NCBI RefSeq assembly: GCF_003665155.1
Contig: NZ_RCFQ01000020.1
Location: 1 to 51,740, forward strand
Origin: Mariprofundus sp. EBB-1
Lineage (GTDB): Bacteria > Pseudomonadota > Zetaproteobacteria > Mariprofundales > Mariprofundaceae
Direction of reading: 5' to 3'
DNA: 51,740 nt
Under the pieces are notes generated by a model. That model was not told the origin of the DNA. It did not search any database and saw only the letters and a program-made list of their open reading frames with translations. Positions 1 to 33,912 of this stretch are shown here, piece after piece (position 1 is the stretch's first letter; every line of letters starts with the position of its first letter). Both the position numbers and the translations under genes were made by a program.

Positions 1-85
1 GATTTTGACCTCTATTATATATAACGTAAAACTCGGTTGAAAAAAACATACTGTGTTAAAAAGACACACAATAAAGTGTGGCGCA

Positions 86-115
86 TTGACCCAGTGATCT
101 GGATCACACTATAGT
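86..115 (+). promoter_or_regulatory. Sigma70-type promoter of the cyc2-like gene
   Basis: TTGACC at 86-91 and TATAGT at 110-115 are separated by 18 bases, a good match to a housekeeping promoter. Transcription would begin around 122, leaving a leader of about 105 bases before the ATG at 228. The promoter fits the strong expression implied by the codon use of the gene. The assignment rests on consensus only. Confidence 0.55.
93..108. promoter_or_regulatory. CRP/FNR-family operator-like palindrome in the cyc2 promoter
   Basis: AGTGATCTGGATCACA contains the perfect inverted repeat GTGATC-TG-GATCAC and fits the CRP half-site spacing GTGA-N6-TCAC; read as GTGAT-N4-ATCAC it also resembles FNR/DNR sites. 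It lies between the -35 and -10 elements, where a bound protein would be expected to block RNA polymerase, although dual-acting regulators are possible. Which family member binds cannot be told from the sequence. Confidence 0.5.
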
Positions 116-128
116 TCGGCCATCCAGT

Positions 129-200
129 CCCGATAACGGGCGACTTCGTTAAGAGGTAGCTAGTTAAAGGAAAGGTATTTGCACTGGTCCCACGGGATCA
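129..200 (+). other. 5' leader of cyc2-like mRNA with two short hairpins
   Basis: Within the predicted leader, CCCG (129-132) can pair with CGGG (137-140) across an ATAA loop, and TGGTCC (185-190) can pair with GGATCA (195-200) across a CACG loop, with one G-U pair. The second hairpin ends about 14 bases before the AGGA ribosome-binding site at 215-218. Such hairpins may stabilise a highly expressed message; no known riboswitch class is recognised. Confidence 0.3.
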
Positions 201-227
201 AATTTAATTTTAATAGGAATCTACAAC

Positions 228-1484
228 ATGAAAAAAATGATTTTTTCTGCTGCTGCTTTCGCTGTTGTTGCTGTATCTGCTGTTGCAGTTGCTCCAACTA
301 CTTCTGAAGCTATTCCAGCATTCGCACGTCAGACTGGCGCTGCTTGCTTGTCTTGTCACTTCCAGAGCTTCCCATCTTTGGCTCCAATGGGTCGCGCATT
401 TAAAGAAGGCGCATTCACTGACGTTGGTGAACAGGCTCTAGTTGAAGATGAAATGCTTTCAATCACTTCTTCTGTAAACATGACTATGGTTCTGCGTCCT
501 AACTTCGTATCTCAGTCTGTAAACGGCGTTACTACTAAATCTGCACTGATTGCTGACCAAGTTCTTATGTTTGGTGGCCGTGTAGGTACTAACACTGGTA
601 CATTCGTAGAATGGGCTGGTGCTGCTGCTAACTTCCAGTTGCTGTCATCTGTTGATGTTGGCGACATGAAAGCTGGTGTTGACTTCTGGTTCGCTGGTTT
701 CGGCGAAACTTCAGGTATGGAAATCGGTTCTACCTTCGGTCAGCACGGTGGTCTGTTAGGTGGTAAGGCTGTTTCTGCTTCTAACACTATCTCTGCTAAT
801 GTTGGTGATATGGCTGGTGTAACATTCTTCGCTGCTAACGACATGATCAATGCTTCTTTCGGTCTGATCACTGCAGGCGCTGCATTCACTGGTGGCTCTA
901 ACGGTTGGAAACTGGCTCCTATGGGACGTTTGTTCGTTCATCAGGAAGTTGGTAACTTCGAACTAGGCTTAGGTGCTGGTATTACTTCTGGCCGTACTGG
1001 TGATGCTGGTACTGTTGCTGCTGTTGGCGGAGCTGGTGCAGCTATTGGTACTGTTCCTGCATTCAATGCGACTGCTTTAACTACTACTTTGGAAATGAAG
1101 AAGTGGATGATTGATGCACAGGCTCAGGGTGAATTGGGCGACATGCAGGTTGGCGTTTATGCCGATTACGCAAAAGCTGGTGCAGGCACTACAACGCGTG
1201 CTAACTTGTTCAGTAAGCTTGGTGGCCAGTCTTCCGGTTACTCTATCCGTGCAAACATCAAACCTTTGCATACTGTAATCGTAAATGCTGGTTTCGGCAT
1301 TCTGCGTGATGCAGACCTTCTTGGTGCTGTAACTAAGACTACACAGTTCCAGGTTGGTGCTGAGTATGAAATCTATCAGAACTTCGTTGTTGCTTTGATC
1401 TACAACAACACTAAAAACACTACAGCTGCTAACGTAGTAACTAAGACTAAAACAACTACATTCGATATCGAAGCACTGCTATAA
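228..1484 (+). CDS. cyc2: Cyc2-like fused monohaem cytochrome c / outer-membrane porin (candidate iron oxidase)
   Basis: The 418-residue protein has a signal peptide (about residues 1-28), then the segment IPAFARQTGAACLSCHFQSF carrying one CxxCH haem site (Cys40, Cys43, His44), followed by roughly 350 residues rich in Gly, Ala, Thr and alternating hydrophobics as in a beta-barrel. A haem domain fused to a porin with an FARQTG..C..CHFQ signature is the hallmark of Cyc2, the outer-membrane protein that takes electrons from extracellular Fe(II) in neutrophilic iron oxidisers. AGGA at 215-218 sits nine bases before the ATG. Codon use is strikingly biased (GCT, GGT, AAC, TAC), unlike its neighbours, which indicates very high expression. 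The gene stands alone, with its own promoter and terminator. The protein does not end in Phe, which is unusual for a barrel, so a distant homologue of different function is possible. Confidence 0.75.
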   Translation: MKKMIFSAAAFAVVAVSAVAVAPTTSEAIPAFARQTGAACLSCHFQSFPSLAPMGRAFKEGAFTDVGEQALVEDEMLSITSSVNMTMVLRPNFVSQSVNGVTTKSALIADQVLMFGGRVGTNTGTFVEWAGAAANFQLLSSVDVGDMKAGVDFWFAGFGETSGMEIGSTFGQHGGLLGGKAVSASNTISANVGDMAGVTFFAANDMINASFGLITAGAAFTGGSNGWKLAPMGRLFVHQEVGNFELGLGAGITSGRTGDAGTVAAVGGAGAAIGTVPAFNATALTTTLEMKKWMIDAQAQGELGDMQVGVYADYAKAGAGTTTRANLFSKLGGQSSGYSIRANIKPLHTVIVNAGFGILRDADLLGAVTKTTQFQVGAEYEIYQNFVVALIYNNTKNTTAANVVTKTKTTTFDIEALL

Positions 1485-1610: not shown

Positions 1611-2294
1611 ATGAAGACTCTCATCAAATATTCCTTTTTATGTTCGATACTCTTTTCCATCACTGCGTGCAGTAATATGCCTCAGTTATTCTGGGACACC
1701 GATGATGGTAGCGGCAAAAACAGTTCATCCATATATGGTACAAAAACAGAGAAGAAGGCTGAGGCACGTGCGCCCTTGGAGGTGCCGCCTGAGCTTCGGG
1801 CTGATATAGCGTTGCCGATGGCTAACGAAGTTAGCACCAATAGCAGTCAAGAACGGTTGCCTGAAAAATATACCAAGGCGGTAGCCGGAAAGGCAGTGGC
1901 TTTAGATGCACGCGCCTATACTGCAACAGCAGATCAAGTGTTTTCGGCGGTTGTAGATGCAATGACATCATTAAATATGCCGATAGAATCAGTGGATTCA
2001 CCCAGTGGCATCGTAACTACCGATTGGGTACAGAGAGGTTTGCACAATAATAATATATTAGGAAGCATGCTTGGGCAGGGCAGTAACGTAACACGCCATC
2101 GTTATGTTGTGCGGGTTTATCGTATAAAAACCGGGCAACAAGAAAAAACCCGTTTAGAAGTGCGGGCGCTCTTGCAGCGGTTTTCCAATAGACATTGGGT
2201 GAGTATGCCCATGAATCAAAAACATACGGCTGCATTTTTTACAACGGTTGAAGAGCAACTTGGCCGTTTGCAAGGTAATACGGTAGCTCCTTAA
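1611..2294 (+). CDS. BamC-like outer-membrane lipoprotein
   Basis: The frame is open from a TTG at 1596, but the ATG at 1611 places the signal peptide correctly: a Lys-containing start, a hydrophobic core, then the lipobox ITAC with the lipidated Cys near residue 20. A low-complexity linker containing APLEVPPEL follows, as in the unstructured N-terminal part of BamC. The C-terminal part (about 100-220) has a helix-grip-like pattern with TTDWVQ, which recalls the equivalent motif in BamC. BamC is an accessory subunit of the BAM complex that folds outer-membrane barrels. Only one grip domain seems to be present, so it is shorter than the E. coli protein. It is the last rightward gene before the convergent trp operon. 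A generic lipoprotein of unknown role is the alternative. Confidence 0.55.
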   Translation: MKTLIKYSFLCSILFSITACSNMPQLFWDTDDGSGKNSSSIYGTKTEKKAEARAPLEVPPELRADIALPMANEVSTNSSQERLPEKYTKAVAGKAVALDARAYTATADQVFSAVVDAMTSLNMPIESVDSPSGIVTTDWVQRGLHNNNILGSMLGQGSNVTRHRYVVRVYRIKTGQQEKTRLEVRALLQRFSNRHWVSMPMNQKHTAAFFTTVEEQLGRLQGNTVAP

Positions 2295-18427: not shown

Positions 18428-19720
18428 ATGCAATATTTACAAAAAGTCCAGCATACGCTGGCAATGATCATCTTGATCGCGATTCCATCCACTGCCACGG
18501 CAGCTGCTTCACCACTTATCTTGCAGCAGGCTGAATCACTGGCTCTGCAACACAATCCGGCTTTGGCAGCGGTGGGTAAACAGGCCGAGGCGATGGCGGC
18601 TATTCCATCGCAGGTGGGCAGCTTGCCTGACCCTAAAGTGTCGTTAAAAGCCATCAATTTACCGGTAGATTCATTTTCCACCACGCAGGAAAATATGACC
18701 CAGATGCAGTTGGGTTTTTCGCAGGGATTACCCTTCCCCGGTAAACTGGGGTTAAAGTCAGAGGCGGCTGAACATATAGCGGCGGCAGCATTGCAAAACA
18801 GACAGGAATTCCGACTGGTTTTGTTGCGTAATACACGAATCCATTGGTGGAACCTGGTTTATCTGGACAAGGCCATTTCCATTATTCGTCGCAATCAGGA
18901 TTTATTGCGTAATCTGGTCAAAATCGCTGAAACCAAATACACAACGGGCAAAGGTTTACAGCAGGATGTGTTGCTGGCTCAGCTTGAACTATCCAAATTG
19001 CTGGAACGCGAACTAAAATTACAGGGTGCTCGTCAGCGAGAAGCAGGCACACTCAATGCTTTGTTAGGGCGTGCAGCCAGTACGGAAATTGTGATTGCCA
19101 GTCAGCAGCCTGGTGCAGTGACGTTCATTAAAGCCGATGTTGAGGGCTTAAAGCAATGGGCGCGCGAGCACCGTCCAATGCTGTTGGCGATGGATTATCG
19201 TGTGCAGGCTGCAGATTCGATGCTGGCTTTGGCGCAAAAAAATTATTACCCCGATTTTAATATTGGTGCTGCTTACGGTTTCCGACAGGGCATCAATCCA
19301 GCCAGCAGAAAATCGAGGCCGGACTTTGCTTCCATCATGCTGACTATGACGGTGCCGCTTTATAGTGGAAGCAAACAGGATAAAGCAGTGGACCAGCGCA
19401 TGGCAGAGAGAGCCCGCGCTCAATTCTCTCATGCCGATGCAGCCAACCGGGTGGATGCGGATATTGATGCGGCGGCCTCAGATTTAAGCATTGCTCACAA
19501 TCAGGTGGTGTTATTTGAAAAGGGCATACTGCCGCAGGCGCGCCTGACCACAGCTTCCATGCTGGCTGGCTATCAGGTCAACAAGGTGGATTTCCTTAAT
19601 CTCGTACGCGCCCAGCTCAGTGAATTTAATACCGACATTCAATATTGGCGGCAGATTTCAGCACTGCATCAGGCCGAAGCCCGTCTGGCTGCCGCTGCGG
19701 GCAAGGAGTCGCTGCAATGA
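18428..19720 (+). CDS. TolC-family outer-membrane efflux protein (CusC/CzcC type)
   Basis: The 430-residue protein has a signal peptide (about 1-26) and two homologous halves with long coiled-coil helices, as in outer-membrane factors. LPDPKVSLKAINLP and GFSQGLPFPGKLGLK are characteristic of the heavy-metal type of TolC proteins. It forms the outer-membrane channel of the pump built with the downstream adaptor and RND transporter. GGGAGG lies about nine bases before the ATG. A repeat-like sequence begins directly at its stop codon (19723-19743). Confidence 0.88.
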   Translation: MQYLQKVQHTLAMIILIAIPSTATAAASPLILQQAESLALQHNPALAAVGKQAEAMAAIPSQVGSLPDPKVSLKAINLPVDSFSTTQENMTQMQLGFSQGLPFPGKLGLKSEAAEHIAAAALQNRQEFRLVLLRNTRIHWWNLVYLDKAISIIRRNQDLLRNLVKIAETKYTTGKGLQQDVLLAQLELSKLLERELKLQGARQREAGTLNALLGRAASTEIVIASQQPGAVTFIKADVEGLKQWAREHRPMLLAMDYRVQAADSMLALAQKNYYPDFNIGAAYGFRQGINPASRKSRPDFASIMLTMTVPLYSGSKQDKAVDQRMAERARAQFSHADAANRVDADIDAAASDLSIAHNQVVLFEKGILPQARLTTASMLAGYQVNKVDFLNLVRAQLSEFNTDIQYWRQISALHQAEARLAAAAGKESLQ

Positions 19721-19722
19721 GT

Positions 19723-19888
19723 CAAAGTCAAAATCATTTCACCGGCCGTTCCAGTGCATCCATGCACTCACGGTATTCGGGCATCCTGCCCATCACACAG
19801 GACGCAAAGGAACGCAAAGGAAAACCAAATCAACAGGTGATGATCTTTAAAGATTCTTCCTCTGCGTCCTTCGCGTCCTTTGCGGTAA
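19723..19888. repeat. CGCAGAGG-type repeats between tolC-like gene and cusB-like gene
   Basis: A pair of inverted arms, 19796-19820 (CACAGGACGCAAAGGAACGC) and 19859-19888 (CCTCTGCGTCCTTCGCGTCC then TTTGCGGTAA), encloses 38 bases. Upstream, AAAGTCAAAATCATTTCACC (19724-19743) resembles the outer extension TGCTTTTGACTTT of other copies in reverse orientation. No gene lies here. The ribosome-binding site of the next gene (GGGAG at about 19900) is just outside the unit. Confidence 0.7.
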
Positions 19889-19910
19889 GAGAATTTAATG
19901 GGAGTAAGGC

Positions 19911-21365
19911 ATGAAGAACACTGGATTAATGATTATGGTGCTTATCGTAGGGCTGGCCGGGGGATATTATTTCTCCGGTATGCAACAGGCATCCAAGCAA
20001 GCTACAAGCGCTGTAAAAATCGAAGTCAAAAGCGATGGGCCATGTGCAGGCGGTGCTCAACCACTGACCTGGCGCAATCCGATGAACCCATCGGTTACCA
20101 GTCCGAAAGCCACCAAGGATAGTATGGGCATGGATTATATTCCGGTCTGTGCCGATGCTGGCGGCAATCAGGGGCCGGCGGGGACTGTGAGAATTGATCC
20201 GACGGTAACACAGGATATTGGTGTGCGTGTCAGTAAAGCTGTTCGCAAAAGTCTATCGCGCGCCATCACTACGGTTGGACGTATCACCTTTGATGAAACC
20301 AAACTGGTGACACTGCATCCCAAGGTGGATGGCTGGGTCGATAAATTATTTATCGATAAGACAGGTGAGAGTGTCAAACTCAATACCATGCTGCTTTCCT
20401 TTTATTCGCCGCAGCTTGTAGCCACGCAGGAAGAATATCTGCTGGCCTTATCCAACTGGCAGCAATTGAAAAACAGCCCGTACACTGATATTCGTGAGGG
20501 TTCGAAACGCTTATTGGAGTCATCACTGGATCGATTGCGTTTCTTTGACGTGGCAGAGCATCAGATTAGAGCACTGAAAAAAACGCATAAAGTGCGCAAG
20601 AGCATGCATATTCATGCGCCAGCAGCAGGCGTGGTAACAAAAATAGGCGTGCGTGAAGGGGCGCATGTCACACCGATGTCCGAGCTTTATCAGATCGCTG
20701 ATCTGTCCCGCGTTTGGGTGCTGGCCGATCTGTACGAGCATGAGATTGGTTGGGTGAAAGAGGGTGATGAGGCGAGATTGAGTATTGCATCCTTGCCCGG
20801 TCGCACGTTCACAGGGCACATCACGTATATTTACCCTTATCTCGATCCCAAGACACGCACCAATAAAGTGCGTATCGAGTTTGATAATGCCGAGGGTCTG
20901 CTCAAGCCGGATATGTTCGGTGATGTGGTGATTACTGCCAGCACGGCCAAGCCCGGCCTGTTTGTACCAAGAGAAGCGGTATTGATCACCGGCAAAAAAG
21001 CCCATCTGTTTGTGCAGGTTGAGCAGGGGCGCTTTGAGCCGCGTACGGTAAAAATAGGCATCAAGGCAGAGGGCTTGGTGGAAATTCTGGACGGCGTGAA
21101 GGAGGGCGAACTGATTGTCACCAGCGGCCAGTTCCTGATCGATTCCGAATCCTCCATCCGCGAAGCCGCCGCTAAGATGGTTGCACCAAAATCATTAACC
21201 GCTAAGGACGCAGGATTAGGCAAAGAAACGCCCAAAATGGACATGAAAGGCATGGACATGGACGCCATGAAAAAGGCTAGCCCCCAAAAACCGAAACCGA
21301 TGGATATGAAGGGCATGAACATGAAAGAGATGAACATGGGAGGAACCACAGATGAACGCAGATAA
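19911..21365 (+). CDS. cusB: RND efflux periplasmic adaptor (CusB type) with Met-rich tail
   Basis: The 484-residue membrane-fusion protein has an N-terminal membrane anchor or signal, a heavy-metal-binding motif region near residues 45-80 (WRNPMNPSVTSP and DSMGMDYIPVC), then the barrel-sandwich and beta-barrel domains (VDGWVDKLFIDKTGESV, IHAPAAGVVTKIGVREGAHV). The C-terminal 50 residues hold repeated MDMKGM/MNMKEM motifs that suit Cu(I) or Ag(I). It would pass metal to the CusA-type pump. The last residues (TTDERR) are encoded by the left arm of a repeat, so the original C-terminus was probably altered by the insertion. The substrate is inferred from Met richness. Confidence 0.88.
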   Translation: MKNTGLMIMVLIVGLAGGYYFSGMQQASKQATSAVKIEVKSDGPCAGGAQPLTWRNPMNPSVTSPKATKDSMGMDYIPVCADAGGNQGPAGTVRIDPTVTQDIGVRVSKAVRKSLSRAITTVGRITFDETKLVTLHPKVDGWVDKLFIDKTGESVKLNTMLLSFYSPQLVATQEEYLLALSNWQQLKNSPYTDIREGSKRLLESSLDRLRFFDVAEHQIRALKKTHKVRKSMHIHAPAAGVVTKIGVREGAHVTPMSELYQIADLSRVWVLADLYEHEIGWVKEGDEARLSIASLPGRTFTGHITYIYPYLDPKTRTNKVRIEFDNAEGLLKPDMFGDVVITASTAKPGLFVPREAVLITGKKAHLFVQVEQGRFEPRTVKIGIKAEGLVEILDGVKEGELIVTSGQFLIDSESSIREAAAKMVAPKSLTAKDAGLGKETPKMDMKGMDMDAMKKASPQKPKPMDMKGMNMKEMNMGGTTDERR

Positions 21366-21434
21366 ACGCAGATTATTTTCTCTCTTAAAAGGTTTTGACT
21401 TTCCTCTGCGTAACTCTGCGTACTCTGCGGTGAA
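21345..21434. repeat. CGCAGAGG-type inverted-repeat unit between cusB and cusA
   Basis: The left arm 21345-21375 (ACCACAGATGAACGCAGATA then AACGCAGATTA) overlaps the 3' end and stop codon of cusB. The right arm 21413-21434 contains CCTCTGCGTAACTCTGCGTA and continues into the extension GCATTTGACTTTGC. The arms are inverted with a short gene-free centre. Confidence 0.75.
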
Positions 21435-21485
21435 AGCATTTGACTTTGCATTTGATTTTGCCTTTTCTGAACTGCGGAGCCAACC

Positions 21486-24400
21486 ATGATCGCCAAAATC
21501 ATTGATGCGAGTCTCCGTAATAAATTAATCATCCTGATTTTCACCGGTCTGCTGGTGGCAGCGGGATCGTTTGCGGTGAAAAATATTTCACTCGATGCCA
21601 TTCCCGATCTGTCCGATGTGCAGGTGATTGTATTCACCAAATATGCTGGTCAGGCACCTCAGGTTGTTGAAGATCAGGTGACCTATCCGTTAACCACATC
21701 CATGCTGGCTGTGCCGCATTCGAAAGTGGTACGCGGATACTCCTTTTTTGGGTTTTCTGTCGTTTACGTCATTTTTGAAGATGGCACCGATATGTACTGG
21801 GCGCGTTCGCGGGTACTGGAATATCTGAATTATGTATCTGGACGACTGCCTGCAGGCGTGAACCCGTCGCTGGGGCCGGATGCAACAGGCGTGGGCTGGG
21901 TGTATGAATATGCGTTGGTGGATAAAACTGGCCAGCATAATTTGGCCGAACTGCGCTCGATTCAGGATTGGTATATGCGTTATGCCTTGCAGACGGTGAA
22001 TGGTGTCTCCGAAGTGGCCTCTATCGGCGGTTTTGTGAAGCAGTACCAAGTCGAAGTCGATCCTAATGCGCTGGCTGAATTAGGTATTCCATTGGCCAAG
22101 GTGAAACATGCCATTAAACGCTCCAATAATGATGTGGGTGGTCGTCTGGTGGAAATGGGCGAAACCGAGTACATGGTGCGTGGCAAGGGTTATCTCAAAG
22201 GCATCGCTGATTTGGAGAGTATTCCAGTCGGTGTAGATACGCACGGTACACCGATTCTGTTGCGCAATGTGGCGAATATTCATTTGGGGCCGGAGCTGCG
22301 GCGCGGTTTGTCTGAACTTAATGGTGAAGGCGAAGTGGCTGGTGGCGTTATCATTATGCGTTTTGGCGAAAATGCGCTCAAAACCATTGAAGCTGTGCGT
22401 GAGAAACTGGATGAATTGAAGTCCGGCTTACCTGCGGGGGTGGAGATCGTACCAACCTATGATCGTGGCGGCTTGATCGAGCGGGCAGTAGACAATCTCA
22501 AAGATAAATTGGTTGAGGAGTTTCTAGTTATTTCGTTGGTCTGTATGTTGTTTCTGATGCATGCCCGTTCAGCGCTGGTGGCTATCATTACCTTACCGCT
22601 GGGTGTGTTGATGGCATTCATGTTGATGCAGTGGCAGGGATTGGCGGCGAACATTATGTCACTCGGTGGTATTGCCATCACGCTTGGAGCCATGGTCGAT
22701 GGTGCGATTGTGCTGATTGAAAATGCCCATAAACATCTGGAGCAGGCGCTGCATGAAAAGAAGAGTCAGAGTCAAAATCTTTTATCATCAGAGAATGATG
22801 AGGGTAGTGCGCCTGAAAGTGGTGAGGTTGAACTGACTGTTTCCGAGCGTTGGGCGGCTGTGGGCAGAGCTTCGCGGGAAGTGGGGCCGGCGCTGTTTTT
22901 CTCGTTGTTGATTATTACCGTTTCTTATATGGCGATTTTCACGTTGGAAGCACAGGAAGGACGTCTGTTTAAGCCGTTGGCATTTACGGCGACTTACGCG
23001 ATGCTGGGTTCGGCAGTGCTGGCGATTACCTTGGTGCCATTGCTGATGGGCTGGTTTATTCGGGGCAAGGTGATGCCGGAGGAAAAGAATCCGGTCAATC
23101 GCGCCTTGCAGTGGGCGCATGGGCCAATGCTGGCAGGGGCGCTTAAACATAAGACGATCACAATTCTTGTCGCGATTGGGCTGCTCTTTTCGATGGCTAT
23201 TCCAATGGGTAAAATCGGTTCGGAATTTATGCCTCCGCTGGATGAAGGAGATATTCTCTACATGCCAACCACCTTCCCCGGTATTTCGATCACCAAGGCG
23301 AAAGAGCTATTACAGCAAACAGACAAGATCCTGAAAACCTTTCCCGAAGTGCAATCGGTATTCGGCAAGGTTGGTCGCGCTGATACGGCGACCGATGCCG
23401 CACCGTTGGCGATGATCGAAACCATTGTACGCCTGAAACCGAAAGCAGACTGGCCTGATGCGGAGAAAACCACTCAGGCGCTGATGAAAGAGATGGATAG
23501 TGCCATCAAGTTTCCGGGGCTCGCTAACGCCTGGACCTACCCGATCAAGACGCGTATCGATATGCTTTCAACCGGCATCAAAACACCGATTGGCATTAAG
23601 GTATCGGGCCCCGATTTGAACGTACTTCAAGAGGTGGGCATATCCATTGAACGGGCCGTGAAAACCTTACCGGAAACGACCTCGGCATTCAGTGATCGTG
23701 CTGCTGGCGGTTATTATCTGGATATTGATATTCAGCGTGATCGAGCCGCCCGCTATGGGCTGACGATCGGTGATATCGAGGATGTGATTCAGTCGGCCAT
23801 TGGTGGCATGAATGTCACCCAGACGGTGGAAGGATTGGAGCGTTATCCAGTAAATCTGCGTTATCCACGTGATTACCGCTCAGATCCAGAGGCTTTGAAG
23901 CGGGTGCTGATTCCAACGCCTACCGGGGCCCAGATTCCTCTGGTGTCGGTGGCAAATATCAGTGTGTTGCGCGGGCCACCGGTGATCAAGACAGAAAATG
24001 CACGCCCGAATGCCTGGGTCTATGTTGATATTTCGACATCGGATATCGGTGGTTATGTGGCCAGAGCCAAGCAGGTGATTGCTGATAAGGTCACCATTCC
24101 ACCGGGTTATACGCTGGAATGGTCGGGACAATTTGAATATATGGAACGCGCCTCGGCCAAGATGCGCATTGTGATTCCTGCGACGCTGCTGCTGATCTTC
24201 CTGTTGCTCTATTTTAATTTCGGTAATTTAGCGGCCCCCATCGTGGTGATGCTGTCGGTACCATTCTCACTGATCGGTGGTTTCTGGCTGGTCTGGTGGT
24301 TGGGTTTCAATTTGAGCGTGGCGGTGGCTGTTGGCTTTATCGCCTTAGCCGGTGTTTCCGCCGAAATTGGTGTGTTGGTGCTCACCTTCATTGATCAGGA

Positions 24401-24707
24401 AGTATCGCAGTGGCGAGAAAGAGCTGGCGGTGCGTTAAGCCCGGATAGCATGCGAAAAGCTGTGCAAAGCGGTGTGGCCAAACGTGTGCGTCCAATCGCG
24501 ATGACGGCCACGGCTGTCATCGCAGGTCTGGTGCCGATTATGTTGGGCGGTGGTACAGGCTCGGATGTCATGCAACGCATCGCAGCACCTATGATCGGTG
24601 GCATGGTGACAACCACCTTGCTGAGCTTGATCGTATTGCCAGTGATTTACGGTTTGGTATTACAATTTAAAGAAAAGAAATTTAATCAACACGAGGATAC
24701 AATATGA
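21486..24707 (+). CDS. cusA: Heavy-metal RND transporter (CusA type)
   Basis: The 1073-residue inner-membrane pump uses the proton gradient to expel Cu(I)/Ag(I) through the TolC-type channel. It begins MIAKIIDASLRNKLIILIFT and has SLDAIPDLSDVQVIV, the proton-relay helix GAMVDGAIVLIENAHKHLE with its Asp, and TRIDMLSTGIKTPIGIKVSG, the last being close to the CusA region that holds a metal-binding Met; EFMPPLDEGDILYMPTTFPG is also conserved. These favour monovalent metal over Zn/Co. After HKHLE the loop is about 20 residues longer than in E. coli CusA and contains repeat-like DNA (22770-22793). The stop overlaps the next gene in an ATGA. Confidence 0.93.
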   Translation: MIAKIIDASLRNKLIILIFTGLLVAAGSFAVKNISLDAIPDLSDVQVIVFTKYAGQAPQVVEDQVTYPLTTSMLAVPHSKVVRGYSFFGFSVVYVIFEDGTDMYWARSRVLEYLNYVSGRLPAGVNPSLGPDATGVGWVYEYALVDKTGQHNLAELRSIQDWYMRYALQTVNGVSEVASIGGFVKQYQVEVDPNALAELGIPLAKVKHAIKRSNNDVGGRLVEMGETEYMVRGKGYLKGIADLESIPVGVDTHGTPILLRNVANIHLGPELRRGLSELNGEGEVAGGVIIMRFGENALKTIEAVREKLDELKSGLPAGVEIVPTYDRGGLIERAVDNLKDKLVEEFLVISLVCMLFLMHARSALVAIITLPLGVLMAFMLMQWQGLAANIMSLGGIAITLGAMVDGAIVLIENAHKHLEQALHEKKSQSQNLLSSENDEGSAPESGEVELTVSERWAAVGRASREVGPALFFSLLIITVSYMAIFTLEAQEGRLFKPLAFTATYAMLGSAVLAITLVPLLMGWFIRGKVMPEEKNPVNRALQWAHGPMLAGALKHKTITILVAIGLLFSMAIPMGKIGSEFMPPLDEGDILYMPTTFPGISITKAKELLQQTDKILKTFPEVQSVFGKVGRADTATDAAPLAMIETIVRLKPKADWPDAEKTTQALMKEMDSAIKFPGLANAWTYPIKTRIDMLSTGIKTPIGIKVSGPDLNVLQEVGISIERAVKTLPETTSAFSDRAAGGYYLDIDIQRDRAARYGLTIGDIEDVIQSAIGGMNVTQTVEGLERYPVNLRYPRDYRSDPEALKRVLIPTPTGAQIPLVSVANISVLRGPPVIKTENARPNAWVYVDISTSDIGGYVARAKQVIADKVTIPPGYTLEWSGQFEYMERASAKMRIVIPATLLLIFLLLYFNFGNLAAPIVVMLSVPFSLIGGFWLVWWLGFNLSVAVAVGFIALAGVSAEIGVLVLTFIDQEVSQWRERAGGALSPDSMRKAVQSGVAKRVRPIAMTATAVIAGLVPIMLGGGTGSDVMQRIAAPMIGGMVTTTLLSLIVLPVIYGLVLQFKEKKFNQHEDTI

Positions 24708-25261
24708 AAAAACTAAATTCAGGATCAATTAAGCGGGTAAACTCAAAAGGCTTTATCTGGGCTATGGGTTTTGCTGCATTATTGCTCGGCGCATGTGATC
24801 AAACGACGGATACAAAGCAAAACACCGCAGCAATGGCCACGACTACTGCTACCGTATCGTCAACCAAGCAGTCAGCGCAACCACTCAAGCCGGAAGTGGT
24901 GATGTATAAGCCCCCAACATGTGATTGTTGCACTGGATGGGCTGAGCATTTGCGCAAAGATGGTTTTACAGTCGTGGTGCATAAACGTGACGACATGGAT
25001 GTGATCAAATCCAAATACGAGGTAACCGATAAACTGGCTTCCTGTCATACCGCTATCGTCGATGGTTATGTCATTGAAGGGCATGTGCCAGCAGCCGATG
25101 TTGAACGCTTGCTCAAAGAGCGACCTGATGTTGTCGGGCTGACTGCACCGGGTATGCCGATGAAATCTCCGGGCATGCAAACTGTGGGTCAAAAACCTGA
25201 AGCTTATGATGTGTTGGCCTTTGACAAGGATGGCAACACCACTGTGTTTCATAAATATTAA
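24704..25261 (+). CDS. DUF411 lipoprotein
   Basis: The 185-residue protein has a lipobox (LLLGAC, Cys31) and a DUF411 domain with PPTCDCCTGWAEHL, KLASCHTAIVDGYVIEGHVP and LTAPGMPMKSPGMQ. The Cys and Met motifs suit metal binding in the periplasm, and DUF411 genes usually travel with copper resistance genes, but the biochemical role is not established to my knowledge. The ATG overlaps the cusA stop, so the two are coupled. A paralogue at 31165-31620 precedes the second ATPase. Confidence 0.88.
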   Translation: MKKLNSGSIKRVNSKGFIWAMGFAALLLGACDQTTDTKQNTAAMATTTATVSSTKQSAQPLKPEVVMYKPPTCDCCTGWAEHLRKDGFTVVVHKRDDMDVIKSKYEVTDKLASCHTAIVDGYVIEGHVPAADVERLLKERPDVVGLTAPGMPMKSPGMQTVGQKPEAYDVLAFDKDGNTTVFHKY

Positions 25262-25331
25262 GGATGGGTTGGCTGGCTAAAAGCGCAGCCTATTTGATCA
25301 TATTGAAGAATAAGGAATATAGGAGAACAGT

Positions 25332-25856
25332 ATGAAAAAAATGATATTAATAATTGCAGGCATGCTGTTGTTGGCATCAGTGCAGATTGCTTCGGCAAAT
25401 GATGATACAAGGAAAATACATGGTGTTCATTACCATGGGCCATTGCATGGGGATAAAGATTCGCAGCAGATGAGCTCAATGAAGAAGGGCATGTTCCTTG
25501 AAAAAAAGGATATTGATGGATATGCCGTCAGCTTTCATGCCATGGCAGTGAAAAAGAATATGCAGCATGGCGGCACGCATAATTATTTGATCAAGGTGGA
25601 AAAAGATGGCACGGCTCTTGGCGATTTAACCGTGAATTCAAAGGTGACACACCCCAATGGTAAATCCGAATCAAAAATGATGATGAAGATGGGCGACTGG
25701 TATATGGCCGGTTACGATCTGGGACACAAGGGCGAGCACCAGTTAATGGTGCTGTTTAAAACACCGGATGGGAAAAAGCATTTTGGTGGTGTTCATTATT
25801 CAGAAATGATTTCAGTTCATGAAAAAAGTCATTCTCATGAGATGACGCATGAATAA
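25332..25856 (+). CDS. Met/His-rich secreted protein, first of a paralogous pair
   Basis: The 174-residue protein has a signal peptide ending in SANDD and a mature part with many His and Met residues (VHYHGPLHGD, MMMKMGDWYMAGYD, VHYSEM, HEKSHSHEMTHE). The second half matches the next protein: THPNG..K..MMKMG.WYMA.Y.L.H...H.L.V.F...GK....GVHY. It looks like a small beta-sandwich comparable to YtkA/FixH-like periplasmic domains. Position in the cus island suggests a periplasmic Cu/Ag-binding protein. AGGAG lies about six bases before the ATG. I do not recognise a named family. Confidence 0.7.
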   Translation: MKKMILIIAGMLLLASVQIASANDDTRKIHGVHYHGPLHGDKDSQQMSSMKKGMFLEKKDIDGYAVSFHAMAVKKNMQHGGTHNYLIKVEKDGTALGDLTVNSKVTHPNGKSESKMMMKMGDWYMAGYDLGHKGEHQLMVLFKTPDGKKHFGGVHYSEMISVHEKSHSHEMTHE

Positions 25857-25881
25857 GGTCATTAATAATAGGAGACCAGTC

Positions 25882-26355
25882 ATGAAATATCTTCTTCTCA
25901 TGGGCTTATTAGTTTCATTTGCAGCATGTTCATTGCAGCAACATGCTCAAACCCCAAAAAGCGAGAAAGCGGCGCATAATTCGATCGCCAAAAGTATGGA
26001 TCATGAACATAGCTTTTTTGTGACTAGAAAAGGTGTTCGCGATGGCTATGTGTTTATTTTTCATGTTATGCCTGCCCCTGAAGGTGAAGGATTTAGTCGC
26101 GAAAATTATCATCTTATGGTGAGCGTTGAAAAAGACGGGCAGGCCATTACTGATCTCACTCTTTACGCCGATGTCAAACATCCCGATGGCACGATTCAGA
26201 AAAAAGCGCCGATGATGCAAATGGGTGCTTGGTATATGGCCTTGTATAATCTTAGCCATGAGATGGGGCAGCATTGGTTGACAGTCTCTTTTGAGCATCA
26301 GGGTAAATCGTATTCTTCTGGCGTGTATTACCCTGAACGCGTCTATCATGAGTGA
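25882..26355 (+). CDS. Lipoprotein, second of the Met/His-rich paralogous pair
   Basis: The ATG at 25882 follows AGGAG (25870-25874) by seven bases and starts a lipoprotein signal with lipobox FAAC; the frame extends eleven codons further upstream but that start overlaps the previous gene. The mature protein shares the core KHPDG...MMQMGAWYMALYNLSH with the preceding gene, so the two arose by duplication, one soluble and one anchored to a membrane. The final bases overlap the start of the next gene by eight. Function is inferred only from context and Met/His content. Confidence 0.7.
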   Translation: MKYLLLMGLLVSFAACSLQQHAQTPKSEKAAHNSIAKSMDHEHSFFVTRKGVRDGYVFIFHVMPAPEGEGFSRENYHLMVSVEKDGQAITDLTLYADVKHPDGTIQKKAPMMQMGAWYMALYNLSHEMGQHWLTVSFEHQGKSYSSGVYYPERVYHE

Positions 26356-26839
26356 ACTGCATCAATGCCCAGTTTGTGGAATGGAAGTAAATACTTCCAA
26401 TCTATGGGCTGATCATCTCGGTACGACGTATTATTTTTGCATTGAACAATGCAAAGAGAATTTTTTAGCACGGCCCAGATTATATCTCGGTAAATCGTCA
26501 ATCAAAAACGTAGGAAAATGCATCTTGAAACGTCGAACCTTCCTGCTTGCCGAACCCGTGGTAGGGCTTAACCGTGAGACGCTTCTGATGCACTTGAATC
26601 AACTGATGAGTGTGCACAATGTTGTGCTTGAAGGTGGCAGAGTTTCTATTGATTATGATTTGCTCGAAGTGCATGCCGAGCAAATTGAAGCGGTCTTGAT
26701 TAAGGCTGGTGCATCGATGGGGGCAGGCTGGGCTACGCGATTTAAACGTAGCTGGATTCATTATATTGAAGAAACTGAACTGGATAATTTAGCGGCATCG
26801 GATGCGGCTTGTTGCAATAAAGCACCAGCAAAGGTTTAG
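26348..26839 (+). CDS. YHS-domain protein with HMA-like C-terminal domain
   Basis: Translation from the ATG at 26348, which overlaps the previous stop, gives about 163 residues. The N-terminal 45 residues form a YHS domain (HQCPVCGMEV, then YYFCIEQCKENF), a small Cys-based metal-binding module. The next 75 residues, beginning KRRTFLLAEPVVGL, have the length and pattern of a ferredoxin-like HMA fold but lack its CxxC. The tail ends ASDAACCNKAP with a Cys pair. An in-frame start at 26291 would reach further back, but only through the preceding gene. A cytoplasmic metal-delivery role for the downstream ATPase is a reasonable guess. Confidence 0.65.
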   Translation: MSELHQCPVCGMEVNTSNLWADHLGTTYYFCIEQCKENFLARPRLYLGKSSIKNVGKCILKRRTFLLAEPVVGLNRETLLMHLNQLMSVHNVVLEGGRVSIDYDLLEVHAEQIEAVLIKAGASMGAGWATRFKRSWIHYIEETELDNLAASDAACCNKAPAKV

Positions 26840-26938
26840 CATAAATGATGTGTTCAATCGTGTGAGGTGGTATCTCTTGTTTCACTTTATTTCACTTGGT
26901 GAAGCAGCGAATAGGAAGTAGTAAATGGAGGCAATATA

Positions 26939-29488
26939 ATGAATATTGATCCGGTTTGTGGCATGGAAGTAAATCCAAAATCTCAGGACCATACTGAATT
27001 TGATGGTCATACATGGCATTTTTGTAGTGCTTCTTGTCAGGAGAAGTTCGAGGCTAGACCTGAGCAGTTTACGATAGATGTTGTTTGCGGCATGCATGTG
27101 AAACCGGAGTCGGTACACCGCGTTAAACATCAGAATATTGCTTACCGTTTTTGTAGTGGGAAGTGTAAAGATAAATTTTCAGTAGATCCGGATACATATA
27201 CAACCAGCCAGCACGCTTGTGATAAACATCATGAACATAAAACCGACGTTGCTGATAATCCTGATGCCACATACTTTTGCCCGATGTGTCCGGGTCAGGA
27301 GCAGCAGGGGCCGGGTACGTGTAAAGTCTGTGGCATGGCTTTGGAGCCGATGGCTGCGCCGACACTGCATGAAAAAACAGAATACGTCTGTCCCATGCAC
27401 CCTGAAGTGATTAGCGATGTGCCGGGCTTATGTCCCAAGTGTGGTATGGCGCTCGAATCGCGCACCGTGACTGCTGAAGAAGATCATGCCGAACTGGATG
27501 ATATGACGCGCCGTTTCAAGCTTGCTGCAGTATTGGCTATTCCGGTATTTTTTCTGGCTATGATCGCAGATCTGGCTCCATCTTGGTTGCCGTCCGGTTT
27601 AGGAATGGGCACGGTACAATGGATTGAATTTAGTTTGGCGACCCCTGTTGTGCTATGGGGTGGCTGGCCGTTTTTCGAACGTTTTGCTCTCTCTCTGAAA
27701 ACATGGAACCTGAACATGTTCACACTGGTTGGTCTGGGTGTCGGGGTGGCATGGATTTACAGTGTTGTTGCATTGCTCTTTCCCGATCTGTTCCCTCCTT
27801 TGATGCAGATGGAAGGTGGGCTTGTTGATGTCTATTTTGAAGCTGCAGCAGTGATTACAGCGCTAGTTTTGTTGGGACAGGTGCTTGAGCTACGCGCCCG
27901 TTCCCGTACCAATGAAGCAATCAAATTATTGCTCGGCATGGCACCGAAAACAGCGCGGCTGGTCAAAGCCGATGGTGAGGAAGTGGATGTGCCGATGGAA
28001 GACGTGCAGGTAGGTGACACGCTGCGCATTCGTCCGGGCGAAAAAGTGCCGGTTGATGGCATTGTTACCAAAGGTGAAAGTCTGGTGGATGAATCCATGG
28101 TGACCGGTGAGCCTGTTCCGGTTGAGAAATTTGTAGGTGAAAAACTGATCGGTGCAACAGTCAATGCCAATGGTTCGTTGTTGATGCAGGCTAAAAAAGT
28201 GGGTGCGGACACCTTATTATCACAAATTGTAAACATGGTGGCTGATGCCCAGCGTTCACGTGCCCCTATACAGAAGATGGCCGATACCGTGGCAGGCTTC
28301 TTTGTCCCTGTGGTGATTGGCATTGCGGCACTGGCTTTTACTGTCTGGTTTTTTGTTGGTCCGGAGCCTCGTTTGGCACATGCGATGATTAATGCCGTTG
28401 CCGTGCTGATTATCGCCTGCCCGTGCGCCTTGGGCCTAGCGACACCGATTTCAATCATGGTTGGCACAGGTCGCGGGGCGACAGCAGGGGTGCTGATCAA
28501 AAACGCCGAAGCGTTGGAGATCATGGAAAAGGTCAATACGGTCGTGGTGGATAAAACGGGTACGCTGACCGAAGGCAAGCCAAGTCTTAGTACGGTACTG
28601 GCCACAGCCGATATTGCTGAAGATGAGGTGTTGATGCTGGCCGCAAGTCTCGAGCGAGCCAGTGAACACCCATTGGCAGCGGCGATTGTCGCGGGAGCCG
28701 AGCTACGCAAATTGAAATTGCAACGTGTTGAAGATTTCACAGCAGTGACAGGCAAAGGTGTGCAGGCGAACATAGGTGGCAGGAGCGTGTTGCTGGGCAA
28801 TGCCAGACTGATGCAGGATTATGAGGTTGATATCCAGGCCGTATCATCCGATGTCGAAACACATCAATTATCCGGGGAAACGGTGATGTATTTGGCTGCG
28901 GATCATCAGTTAATTGGCTTGATCGGCGTATCGGATCCGATCAAGGCTTCGACACCGGATGCCATCAAAGAGCTGCGCGATGAGGGTATTGAAGTGGTGA
29001 TGCTGACCGGGGACAATCATCATACGGCAGCAGCGGTTGCTGCGAAATTGGGGATTGAACGTTTCGAGGCTGACGTGTTACCGGATCAAAAAGCAGCCGT
29101 AGTGAAAGCCTTGCAGGCGGAAGGTAAAACCGTGGCCATGGCGGGCGATGGCATCAATGATGCGCCGGCTCTAGCACAGGCGCATGTCGGTATTGCCATG
29201 GGCACTGGTACGGATGTGGCTATGGAATCAGCCGGTGTCACACTGATTAAAGGTGATTTGACCGGTATTGTGCGGGCGCGCCGTTTATCACGCGCCACCA
29301 TGAAAAACATCCGCCAGAATCTGTTTTTCGCATTCATCTATAATTCAGCAGGTGTGCCGATTGCAGCCGGTGCACTGTATCCGATGTTTGGCCTGTTGCT
29401 CTCGCCGGTGATTGCCGCAGCAGCGATGAGTTTTAGCTCCGTTTCCGTGATCACCAACGCGCTGCGATTGCGTAATACGAAGCTGTAG
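26939..29488 (+). CDS. copA: P1B-type Cu/Ag ATPase with two YHS and two CPM(H/C)P modules
   Basis: The 849-residue pump exports Cu(I)/Ag(I) from the cytoplasm using ATP. Four short Cys modules precede the membrane part: YHS (IDPVCGMEV, 4-12), a second YHS-like unit ([10 protein letters not shown], near 48), YFCPMCPG (near 111) and YVCPMHPE (near 148); no ordinary HMA domain is present. The core has the metal site CPC in [15 protein letters not shown], the phosphorylation site [11 protein letters not shown], the HP motif [22 protein letters not shown] and the C-terminal [15 protein letters not shown]. Eight hydrophobic helices fit the family. AATGGAGG precedes the ATG. The catalytic part is very similar to the second ATPase at 31648. 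Confidence 0.93.
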
Positions 29489-29514
29489 TGCAAAAATAAT
29501 AACAGGAGTAGTAA

Positions 29515-30279
29515 ATGATTGAAGTCACATGGGCAGGAGCCCTGCTTGCCGGTTTGTTATCGTTTTTATCACCGTGCGTATTGCCGTTGGTGCCGGCTTA
29601 TTTGTCGTATATTTCCGGCGTGTCAGTGGATGAATTGCGTCAACATGATGAGGCATCGGCAGGTGTGCGGCGGAGGGCATTGATGCAGTCGTTGTGGTTT
29701 GTGTCGGGTTTTAGTCTGGTGTTTATTGCGCTCGGTGCGTCCGCGACATTGCTGGGGCAATGGATGCTCAGTCATATGGATATGCTAGGAAAAGTTGCCG
29801 GTGCAATTATTGTGGTGTTTGGTTTGCATTACACAGGACTGATTCGGATTCAATTATTGATGATGGATGCGCGTTTTGATGCTGGAGGCGTTAATTCCAA
29901 CAAAGGGATCGGCGCGTTGATTTTAGGCTCGGCTTTTGCCTTTGGCTGGACACCTTGCATTGGCCCCATTCTCGGCGCGATTCTTGCGGTGGCTGGCAGT
30001 CAGACCAATATGCTAAATGGAATTTTTCTCTTGCTGGCCTATTCGCTGGGTTTGGCGATTCCTTTTTTATTGGCAGCGCTGGCGACCGATTCGTTTTTGC
30101 GTTGGTCGCAAGGCTTTAAACGGCATCTGGCTATAATTGAAAAGATATCGGGTGTGTTATTGATTGCTGTAGGTCTATTGATTTTCTTTGGTAGTTTCAG
30201 TGTGATCTCGGCGTGGTTGATTGATTGGTTTCCAGCTTTGGCTGATATCGAAGGTGCTTTTTCAGATTTAGCACCATAA
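29515..30279 (+). CDS. ccdA: CcdA/DsbD-type thiol-disulfide electron carrier
   Basis: The 254-residue, six-helix membrane protein has the two conserved Cys motifs SFLSPCVLPLVPAYLSYISG near residue 20 and FGWTPCIGPILGAILA near 145. CcdA moves electrons from cytoplasmic thioredoxin to periplasmic thiol proteins, best known in cytochrome c maturation. Here, 26 bases after the ATPase and inside the metal island, it may keep periplasmic Cys-bearing metal proteins reduced; this role is inference. It could equally serve the abundant cytochrome at the window start. AGGAG lies seven bases before the ATG. Confidence 0.9.
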   Translation: MIEVTWAGALLAGLLSFLSPCVLPLVPAYLSYISGVSVDELRQHDEASAGVRRRALMQSLWFVSGFSLVFIALGASATLLGQWMLSHMDMLGKVAGAIIVVFGLHYTGLIRIQLLMMDARFDAGGVNSNKGIGALILGSAFAFGWTPCIGPILGAILAVAGSQTNMLNGIFLLLAYSLGLAIPFLLAALATDSFLRWSQGFKRHLAIIEKISGVLLIAVGLLIFFGSFSVISAWLIDWFPALADIEGAFSDLAP

Positions 30280-30313
30280 GTCCGACAGATTCCTAGCTTA
30301 GAGAGGTGTCACG

Positions 30314-30946
30314 ATGTTTACTGTATATGGCCCGGGTGCAACTGATCCTATTCCTTTGGAGAGGCTGTTTGTACGTCCTGCGGTAACGAAACCGGCTGCG
30401 ATTTCTGCCATGCAAGGGATTAAAGCTAAAACAAACTCCAATGTTCATACAGGAAGCGAATCTCACTCCGCAGCAGGGCTGCAACAGTATCACAGTGCAG
30501 AAACGATAAGCGAAAAAAATCCATCCCTTAAAGCTGTGCAAATTATGACTACTTCCGTAGTTTATGTGTTGTCGAGTGCGAGCGTAGCTGTGGCGCTGAA
30601 AGAGTTAGAGTCAAGTCAGTTTCGTCACATTCCCGTGCTTTCGGATGAATATCAGCTTGTTGGTATGATTTCGGACAGGGATATTGTGCGTTGCATGTGT
30701 GGTTCGGGCAATGTGTGTGTGCACTGCGCCAAGGACAAACAAGAGATAACGGTTGAGACGATCATGAAGGGCAATGTGCTTAGTGCATCTGTGGACACGG
30801 ATGCACGTTATATCGCCAGACTTTTTGTAGAACAACGTATCGGAGCCATGCCGATCACGGACGAGGGTCAATTGGTTGGTATGATTACGCGAAGTGATAT
30901 TCTCAAGGCTGTAATGGTTCATTTTGATTTGAACCTTTGGTCATGA
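30314..30946 (+). CDS. Two-CBS-domain protein with an inserted Cys cluster
   Basis: The 210-residue protein has a poorly conserved N-terminus (1-70) and two CBS domains (about 72-130 and 145-208: QFRHIPVLSDEYQLVGMISDRDI and IGAMPITDEGQLVGMITRSDI). CBS pairs usually bind adenosine nucleotides. Between them lies a Cys cluster, C127-x-C129-x5-C135-x2-C138 with His137, which could hold zinc, copper or an iron-sulfur cluster. That insertion and the location between the two ATPase groups suggest a metal- or energy-sensing switch. The ribosome-binding site GAGAGGTG precedes the ATG. No partner enzyme domain is fused. Confidence 0.82.
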   Translation: MFTVYGPGATDPIPLERLFVRPAVTKPAAISAMQGIKAKTNSNVHTGSESHSAAGLQQYHSAETISEKNPSLKAVQIMTTSVVYVLSSASVAVALKELESSQFRHIPVLSDEYQLVGMISDRDIVRCMCGSGNVCVHCAKDKQEITVETIMKGNVLSASVDTDARYIARLFVEQRIGAMPITDEGQLVGMITRSDILKAVMVHFDLNLWS

Positions 30947-31164
30947 ACATGCATCCACAGTAACCGGTTTGAGATAAAACAAGGTTGATGGAGTGCTAGC
31001 TTGCCGCGCATTATCTTGGCGGTGCTGTTGTTTCCGAAGCTTAGGCCCTGTCATTTTTGGCAGCGGTTGATTTTTATATGAAATGTAGAAGCATCCGCAA
31101 CAATCTGAATAGTTTTTTATACGATTAGCTTTTTGAAGCTATCGGTTTGATGAAGGAGTGATCA

Positions 31165-31620
31165 ATGAATGCGATAAAAGTGGGCCTTGGAGCCATCTTG
31201 ATGATTAGTGTTGGATTGTTTGTAGCCAAGATCAATGAGGGTGATGCAACCGAAGTCGTGATGCATAAGTCAGCAAACTGTGAATGTTGCTCAGAATGGG
31301 GCGCTCATATGAAGGATAATGGCTTTACAGTCGTTGAAAAGACACATGACAATATGAGCGAAATTAAAAGGACGCTTGGTATGCCTGAAAAATTGGCATC
31401 GTGTCATACCGGTGTGATTGGTGGTTATTTGATTGAAGGGCATGTGCCTGCTGCTGATGTACAACGTTTGTTAAAAGAGCGGCCTGATATCATTGGTCTG
31501 ACTGCACCGGGAATGCCGATGAATTCACCTGGTATGCAGAAAAAAGGTCAGGAACCCAAGGGCTATGATGTGCTGGCGTTGAATCATGACGGCACAACAT
31601 CTGTTTACGCTCATTATTGA
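31165..31620 (+). CDS. DUF411 protein, second copy
   Basis: The 151-residue protein has an N-terminal hydrophobic segment (about 6-22) and a DUF411 domain (KSANCECCSEWGAHM, KLASCHTGVIGGYLIEGHVP, LTAPGMPMNSPGMQ). It is close to the lipoprotein at 24704 over the whole domain but is anchored or secreted by a normal signal segment. GAAGGAG lies about seven bases before the ATG, and the second CopA follows 27 bases after its stop. The pair DUF411 + CopA therefore looks like a duplicated module of the island. Confidence 0.87.
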   Translation: MNAIKVGLGAILMISVGLFVAKINEGDATEVVMHKSANCECCSEWGAHMKDNGFTVVEKTHDNMSEIKRTLGMPEKLASCHTGVIGGYLIEGHVPAADVQRLLKERPDIIGLTAPGMPMNSPGMQKKGQEPKGYDVLALNHDGTTSVYAHY

Positions 31621-31647
31621 TTGTATGTTAGGGCTTAAGTTCTAATC

Positions 31648-33912
31648 ATGAACGAACAGCCTGTCATTCGTCTGTCGGTTAGCGATATGCGTTGTGCCGG
31701 CTGTATCAGTAAAGTCGAAGCGGCTATTGATAGTGTTGATGGGGTGGCGCAGGCGAGCGTCAGTCTTGCCGATCACACAGCCATTATCTTTGTCCATGCA
31801 GATCACGTAGGCCGAATGCATGAGTTGGGCGATGCTGTCATTGCAGCCATCGCCAATACGGGTAGGGAAGCAACACGCCTGTCTGTTTCTGATGATGTGA
31901 ATGTCCGGCCCGAGACATCCACAGAGCAGGATGGGCAGAGTAAAAAACGACTATTACAGGTGCTGGTCGCAGGTGTGGCTGGTTTTGGGCTGATGGCCGC
32001 CAATATGGCAGGGCTGTTGCCTGCCATAAGCGCAGATCATACTGTTTTCTGGATCGGGGTCGCACTGATCACGGCTATGATCATGCTGGCCACTGGTTTT
32101 GATTATTACAGAGGTATGCTGCGTGGTTTTAAATATCGCAGTGGCAGTATGGATACACTCATTGGCCTGGGTACGGCCTCTGCCTGGTGTTACTCGACTG
32201 TACTGGTGATCAACCCCGATCTGATTGTTGAAGCCGCCCGCCATACCTATTTTGAAGCTGCTCTGATTATTTTAGCCCTGATCAATCTTGGTCAGTGGTT
32301 AGAGTCGCGCGCCAAAGGCAAGACTGGGGAGGCGATTCGCCTGCTCTGTGGACTGCAAGCCAGAGATGCCCGGCTGGTTCGTGATGCCGATGACGGGACA
32401 GTCGAGATCGATATTCCCATTTCACAGGTGCGGGTAGGGGATATTCTACGTGTGCGGCCGGGTGAAAAAGTGCCTGTCGATGGGCGTGTGACAGAAGGCC
32501 AAAGCGTACTGGATGAATCAATTATCTCCGGTGAGTCCATGCCGGTGCTCAAAAGTGCTGGTGATGCCGTGATTGGTGGCACCATCAATGCCACAGGTTC
32601 GCTGCTGATTCAGGCCGAACAGATTGGCCATGATACGGTGTTGGCCCACATTATTGATACCGTGCGCATCGCTCAGGCCAGTAAACCGGCCATTGCCAAA
32701 TTGGCTGATCGTGTGGCCAGCATCTTTGTCACTGCGATTATCTCTATTGCTCTGCTGACCTTTGTCATCTGGTGGTTTTTCGGCCCTGAACCATCATCTG
32801 TTTACGCTTTTACCACCATGATGAGTGTGTTGCTGATCGCTTGCCCATGTGCGCTGGGTTTGGCGACACCGATTTCAATCATGGTGGGCACAGGTCGCGG
32901 TGCGACAGCAGGCATCTTAATCAAAAACGCCGAAGTGTTGGAGATGCTGGAAAAGGTCACTACCGTCGTAGTGGATAAAACGGGTACCCTGACCGAAGGA
33001 AAACCTAGTCTGAGTACATTACATTCTATTGGCGCTATGGCTGAAGATGATCTGCTGTCGCAGGCTGCAAGTCTGGAGCAAGGCAGTGAACATCCGTTAG
33101 CCGCAGCCGTGCTAGAGGCCGCCAAAGAGCGCGAGCTCTCCTTAGAAACAGTGGACGATTTTGCTGCACTGCCTGGAAAAGGCGTTCAAGGTTTGATGAA
33201 TCAACAAACACTCCTGCTCGGTAATGCAACACTGATGAACGATGCAGACATTAAGATCTGCGAGCATGCGGAGCTGGTTGAACAGCATCAGCAGGCTGGT
33301 GAAACCGTCATCTATCTTGCAGTGAATGGAGCACTGGCCGGTTTGATCGGTATCTCTGACCCGATCAAGACTACGACACAGGAAGCCATCACAGCTTTGC
33401 ATGATGAAGGCATAGAAGTGGTGATGCTGACCGGTGATAACCATCATACAGCTCAAGCTGTTGCTACTAAATTAGGTATTAAACATTTTGAAGCCGAAGT
33501 ACTGCCAGAGCAAAAGGCGGCAGTCATCAAACAACTACAGGATGAAGGCAATATCGTTGCGATGGCAGGTGACGGTATCAACGATGCACCTGCGTTAGCG
33601 CAAGCCCATGTTGGCATTGCCATGGGGACAGGCACCGATGTAGCGATGGAGTCGGCCGGACTCACCCTGATCAAAGGTGATTTGAATGGTATTGTGCGGG
33701 CGCGCCGTTTATCACGCGCCACCATGAAAAATATTCGCCAGAACCTGTTCTTCGCCTTCGTCTATAATTCCGCAGGTGTACCCATTGCGGCAGGGATTCT
33801 CTATCCCTTCTTTGGCTTACTATTGTCACCCGTTATCGCAGCAGCAGCCATGAGTTGCAGTTCGGTCTCTGTCATCACCAATGCACTGAGGTTACGTTCG
33901 ACCAAGTTGTAG
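31648..33912 (+). CDS. copA: P1B-type copper-exporting ATPase with N-terminal HMA domain
   Basis: The 754-residue pump has one N-terminal HMA domain ([20 protein letters not shown]), then the same catalytic core as the first ATPase: [52 protein letters not shown]. The last helix reads [15 protein letters not shown], with a Cys in place of the Phe of the first copy. Long DNA stretches are nearly identical between the two genes (for example around 29255-29330 and 33685-33760), indicating recent duplication or gene conversion. The different N-termini suggest that the pumps are loaded by different chaperones. Confidence 0.94.

Follow-up and report, generated by a model that had tools for sequence, protein, structure and literature searches.

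A cyc2 gene of Mariprofundus sp. EBB-1 and the conserved signals around it

The cyc2 gene and its surroundings

The window discussed here, by which we mean the whole 51,740-nucleotide stretch that was analysed, is a complete contig (C13) of Mariprofundus sp. EBB-1. The assembled genome comprises 2.88 Mb in 63 contigs and is 99.5% complete, and among named genomes it is best matched by those of Mariprofundus and other Zetaproteobacteria. Near the left end of the window lies an open reading frame on the forward strand that begins with ATG and encodes 418 amino acids, referred to below as cyc2 (Table 1). The contig starts 227 bases before this gene, which is all that is visible of its 5' flank, and so the upstream neighbour is out of sight.

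Downstream, cyc2 is followed by a gene for a lipoprotein that matches PF06804 (NlpB/DapX) with 24.5 bits, slightly below the cut-off of 25, and then by trp genes on the opposite strand. The order cyc2, BamC-like lipoprotein, trpC is found again in most relatives, while the genes upstream of cyc2 differ among them. The original prediction regarded cyc2 as a stand-alone gene, which is apt for a single-gene transcript unit and inapt for its position: because the downstream order is conserved, cyc2 is monocistronic yet not isolated. The lipoprotein gene follows cyc2 class-wide, in some genomes as two or three tandem copies that have diverged.

Farther along the contig, positions 18428 to 33912 hold a heavy-metal efflux set, including an outer membrane efflux protein, an HlyD-type membrane-fusion protein, an AcrB-type pump (ACR_tran), and two heavy-metal P-type ATPases. 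A gene for an FTR1-family iron permease (35332 to 36882) shares the contig as well.

Table 1. Features of the cyc2 locus, with positions in the window
Feature	Position	Strand	Basis or remark
Palindromic site, presumed operator or activator site	52..68		Conservation; here TGTGTTAAAAAGACACA, class consensus GTGTGnCAAAATGACACAC
Weaker second repeat TGTGnCn-N3-TGACCCA, over the -35 hexamer	77..93		Aligned block
Sigma-70-type promoter TTGACC-N18-TATAGT, then TCG	86..115	+	Consensus match, class conservation
CRP/FNR-like palindrome GTGATCTGGATCAC in promoter spacer	94..107		Mainly Mariprofundus and near relatives
5' leader hairpin TGGTCC(CACG)GGATCA	185..200	+	Covariation, conservation; 27 nt before start codon
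Probable Shine-Dalgarno AGGA	215..218	+	Sequence; AGGA conserved in alignment
cyc2 (signal peptide, monohaem domain, 16-strand porin)	228..1484	+	Open reading frame, structure model, homologues
Probable signal peptide (aa 1-28)	228..311	+	Inspection: MKK, hydrophobic stretch, ...TTSEA
Haem domain (aa 29-78): AIPAFARQT, CLSCH (345-359), PSL	312..461	+	Sequence, alignment
Porin domain (aa 79-418)	462..1481	+	AlphaFold2 model, Foldseek, VIA-align
Intrinsic terminator, UUCG tetraloop	1508..1541	+	Fold, U-tract, similar hairpins in relatives
BamC/NlpB-like lipoprotein, beside cyc2 in most relatives too	1611..2294	+	PF06804, synteny

Identity of the encoded protein

Cyc2 is the outer-membrane protein through which marine rust-forming bacteria obtain electrons from iron in solution. 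Published Cyc2 proteins share the signature AXPXFAR[Q/K][T/Y] and a PXL motif four residues past the CxxCH, and a length floor of 365 amino acids has been applied to them (PMC8406198). The protein encoded here, whose N-terminal sequence is AIPAFARQTGAACLSCHFQSFPSL, has a single CxxCH near its N terminus (residues 40 to 44; context EAIPAFARQTGAACLSCHFQSFPSL). AIPAFARQT stands just before this haem-binding motif as a match to the first signature, the arrangement CLSCH-FQSF-PSL provides the second at the same distance of four residues, and the length of 418 residues exceeds the minimum. In a search of 61 related genomes, most of those from Mariprofundus and its sister genera yielded full-length homologues with 44 to 67% identity. 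Scanned against Pfam and NCBIfam, the protein matched no model, and its identity therefore rests on homologues, motifs, and fold; a sequence search of the PDB also found no relative.

AlphaFold2, run with eight relatives in the alignment, predicted a barrel of 16 strands, each of 7 or more residues. Residues 80 to 418 were mostly modelled at pLDDT 60 to 90, with a few weaker loops, and the haem domain was modelled at pLDDT below 50. Foldseek matched the model to general outer-membrane porins. With VIA-align, the top match was OprO (4rjw; Z 22.4, 305 aligned residues, 3.4 A), with OprB just behind and OprP (2o4v) fourth at Z 21.5, where Z differences below 1 are to be read as ties. OprO and OprP are also the porin templates cited for the Cyc2 of Mariprofundus ferrooxydans PV-1 (PMC8406198). 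Moreover, a tree of the short haem domain placed the protein among Zetaproteobacteria FARQTG proteins, away from the FARKYG type.

The original prediction was of a Cyc2-like monohaem domain fused to a porin, and motif, length, predicted fold, and homologues agree with it. It had called for a structure prediction of a barrel plugged by a haem domain, of which the barrel part is borne out, and the outcomes that it named as counterevidence, a best hit to a non-Cyc2 cytochrome family or a fold that lacks a barrel, did not occur. These four lines of evidence support the assignment of the gene as cyc2 of the Mariprofundus (Zetaproteobacteria) type, and the protein probably belongs to phylogenetic Cluster 1.

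Comparison with known iron-oxidation systems places the protein closest to PV-1 Cyc2, a Cluster 1 protein from the same genus. The two share the fusion of an N-terminal monohaem domain to a 16-strand porin, both signature motifs, and an OprO/OprP-like barrel; very high expression is expected for both, and a comparison via the published description of PV-1 Cyc2 revealed no functional difference. Cyc2 from Acidithiobacillus ferrooxidans (Cluster 2) and Cyt572 from Leptospirillum (Cluster 3) have the same architecture by description (PMC7029218, PMC8406198); unlike the protein studied here, they come from acidophiles, and similarity to them is limited to the N-terminal domain (PMC5566968). The redox potential of A. 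ferrooxidans Cyc2 is 560 mV, versus 208 mV for PV-1 Cyc2 (PMC8406198). A. ferrooxidans cyc2 also lies within the rus operon, whereas the gene described here is single. MtoAB and PioAB likewise provide an outer-membrane route for electrons from iron, but they do so with a separate 26-strand porin and a decahaem cytochrome instead of one fused protein of 418 residues with one haem. Genes of this kind and their traits are already covered by published work on Zetaproteobacteria, so that this one extends a known family, and no concept is changed by it.

A genome search found cyc2 to be the sole full-length Cyc2 copy in the host, the second match being short. That match, at C12:91048-91308 (equivalent to L041 7965-8225), is an orphan haem domain; it is about 87 residues long, carries ATPSFSRQVNADCRTCHF, and is barrel-less. 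Related orphan haem-domain genes are present in about ten genomes of Zetaproteobacteria (also L042-L047, L052, L079, and L149); the products, in most cases of about 75 to 97 amino acids, have a signal peptide and a charged tail and no porin. In Mariprofundus, the orphan gene is often flanked by genes for a MerR-family regulator and a photolyase, with BLUF and glutathione-peroxidase genes close by, while its contexts differ in other genomes. The orphan domains form one group with support 0.98 in a short-domain tree, although a tree of 45 residues amounts to weak data. They share an invariant methionine about 25 residues past the CxxCH that is absent from Cyc2, and one close pair has a dN of 0.04 and a dS of 0.22. 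Published Cyc2 pipelines drop proteins under 300 to 365 amino acids, and thus these genes would be missed. Outside the Zetaproteobacteria, a 94-residue Cyc2-haem-like open reading frame (SPAYVRQTGLPCNACH; L146 4965-5249, G161:C31) adjoins a TetR-like open reading frame.

Probable iron oxidation in the host

By homology, Cyc2 would sit in the outer membrane. As extrapolated from the characterised PV-1 protein, dissolved Fe2+ would enter the 16-strand barrel and pass an electron to the single c-haem, at the mouth on the periplasmic side, from which it would travel to periplasmic c-type cytochromes and on to a cbb3-type oxidase. The host genome encodes cbb3 oxidase subunit I (ccoN, above cut-off) and a second ccoN-like gene, RuBisCO, and proteins with 18 Cytochrom_C domain matches. 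It also contains a [NiFe]-hydrogenase large-subunit-like gene (L144 652-2142, on contig C45; best NCBIfam model VhuA, below cut-off), which is followed by a protease-like open reading frame, as well as a NuoCD/hydrogenase-4-like gene.

The original prediction took cyc2 as a sign that the host gains its energy mainly from Fe(II) oxidation. The proposal fits the clade, the cbb3 oxidase, RuBisCO, and the c-type cytochromes; the gene alone is insufficient to carry it, and the presence of the [NiFe]-hydrogenase-like gene tempers it. We consider iron oxidation the likely main energy metabolism. Alternatively, the protein could be a Cyc2-family cytochrome-porin with another electron role, such as extracellular exchange or metal handling, and not the main Fe(II) oxidase. 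Cyc2 homologues do occur in many bacteria that are not known as iron oxidisers (PMC5566968), heavy-metal efflux genes lie on the same contig, and the [NiFe]-hydrogenase-like gene would make other electron donors possible. Nevertheless, no other full-length Cyc2 turned up in the genome, the codon bias of cyc2 is on a par with ribosomal genes, and Fe(II) oxidation is established for the nearest characterised relative, the PV-1 protein from the same genus (PMC8406198), all of which makes another role very improbable.

Expression signals and the upstream control region

Codon usage sets cyc2 apart from its neighbours, as had been predicted. With 23 ribosomal-protein genes on contig C62 of the same genome as the reference, cyc2 has a codon adaptation index of 0.791, which falls within the range of those genes (0.59 to 0.80) and compares with 0.633 for the next-best gene in the window. 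Its Nc of 33.8 is the lowest among the 42 open reading frames of the window, and the excess of its codon bias over an amino-acid-matched expectation (z = 11.5) compares with at most 8.5 for ribosomal genes. This bias supports a prediction of high cyc2 expression, with translation that would proceed at a level like that of ribosomal proteins. Since cyc2 is often the most expressed Zetaproteobacteria gene in iron mats (PMC7029218), a strong bias is to be expected; high expression of Zetaproteobacteria iron-oxidation genes was also predicted earlier via codon bias (PMC10734525).

Judging from the flanking signals, the cyc2 message would comprise a single gene, begin at its own sigma-70-type promoter, and end at a UUCG terminator. 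The terminator hairpin (1508 to 1535) has a 12-bp stem and a UUCG loop, is followed by a U-tract, and folds with z = -4.5; most of the relatives that were read have a CTTCGG hairpin after cyc2, and two have CCTCGG. For the promoter, a consensus match taken alone is at chance level, with 4 found and 3.6 expected. However, TTGACC-N17/18-yAnnGT followed by TCG recurs in front of cyc2 class-wide, and this conservation confirms the predicted promoter. The original prediction of a dedicated promoter and a UUCG terminator therefore stands, the former by conservation and the latter by fold and U-tract. The register of the weaker repeat over the -35 hexamer may represent a second site. The CRP/FNR-like palindrome in the spacer has no counterpart in many other genera and for that reason was not taken to be the main element.

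When cyc2 upstream regions of relatives were aligned on the -35 box, a palindrome with the consensus GTGTGnCAAAATGACACAC emerged about 24 bp ahead of it. With up to 2 mismatches, the palindrome is present in 24 of 32 non-redundant upstream regions (0 in shuffles), and with up to 4 in 30 of 32 (0.1 in shuffles); these counts measure conservation and are not an independent test, the consensus having been derived from the same sequences. A scan of 12 genomes yielded no recurrent second target, with hits besides cyc2 scattered among unrelated genes; in the host genome there were 6 hits versus 3 in a reversed control. A wider palindrome regulon was accordingly rejected, as counts were near those of the control and protein comparison across the 12 genomes uncovered no common neighbour gene. 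The palindrome is also absent at the loci read for the second, FARKYG-type Cyc2 and for the orphan haem domains. Conserved class-wide, it would probably bind a dedicated regulator.

A promoter that is simply strong and constitutive, with an UP-like element and no dedicated regulator, might explain the same conserved block, given that a conserved -35/-10 pair forms the end of the block, that very highly expressed genes retain strong promoters, and that no second gene with the palindrome has been established. The element, however, spans about 19 bp as an inverted repeat around a conserved AAA centre, unlike the A/T tract that makes up an UP element, and it recurs with the frequency given above. 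Furthermore, cyc2 expression rises upon the addition of Fe(II), and it has been suggested that the gene may be regulated and that regulation tests are needed (PMC7029218). On this evidence, we regard a purely constitutive promoter as rather unlikely.

Between promoter and start codon, leaders across the class contain a hairpin that ends 20 to 32 nt before the start codon and is followed by AAT. The hairpin was found in 20 of 32 non-redundant leaders, compared with 2.1 in shuffles. In an alignment of 21 leaders, 100% of cells are paired, double-sided changes occur in 4 of 6 pairs, the covariation score was reached by 0 of 500 shuffles, and a shift of the pairing by 1 to 3 columns lowers it to 6 to 52%; these 21 leaders were picked for forming the hairpin, and so the 20 of 32 is the fairer measure. 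A leader model searched against seven Mariprofundus genomes gave cyc2 as the only strong match, and the cyc2 matches are expected because the cyc2 leaders of those genomes are part of the model. Near cyc2, Rfam returned only lower matches and no family at gathering score.

The hairpin would probably stabilise the mRNA or keep the ribosome-binding site open. Its strong covariation and its place directly ahead of that site could also suit an attenuator or a ligand-sensing element instead of a stabiliser. Such elements are improbable here, as it is a simple hairpin of 6 to 9 bp with a variable loop and A/U-rich flanks, shows neither a U-tract nor an alternative pairing, and lacks an Rfam family at gathering score.

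Palindrome, promoter, and leader hairpin are common to the cyc2 genes of about 30 divergent Zetaproteobacteria, and the combination was found at no other gene in the genomes scanned. As a whole, the locus is best explained, with a probability of about 95%, as a cyc2 gene with its own promoter, a UUCG terminator, high translation, a probable upstream regulator site, and a leader hairpin. Going further, we lean toward the proposal that the palindrome, the TTGACC promoter, and the covarying hairpin constitute a class-wide cis-regulatory module dedicated to cyc2 and served by its own regulator.

The cyc2 literature covered describes no regulatory site, and PMC7029218 mentions no promoter. This coverage is partial, and the novelty of the control region is thus unproven; still, the control region looks new, while the protein itself does not. 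Further work is warranted on the regulatory module and on the orphan haem domain. The conserved site, promoter, and hairpin make the question of cyc2 regulation directly testable. If the module is real, it would give direct access to the way in which neutrophilic iron oxidisers perceive iron or redox state and adjust the amount of their main oxidase.
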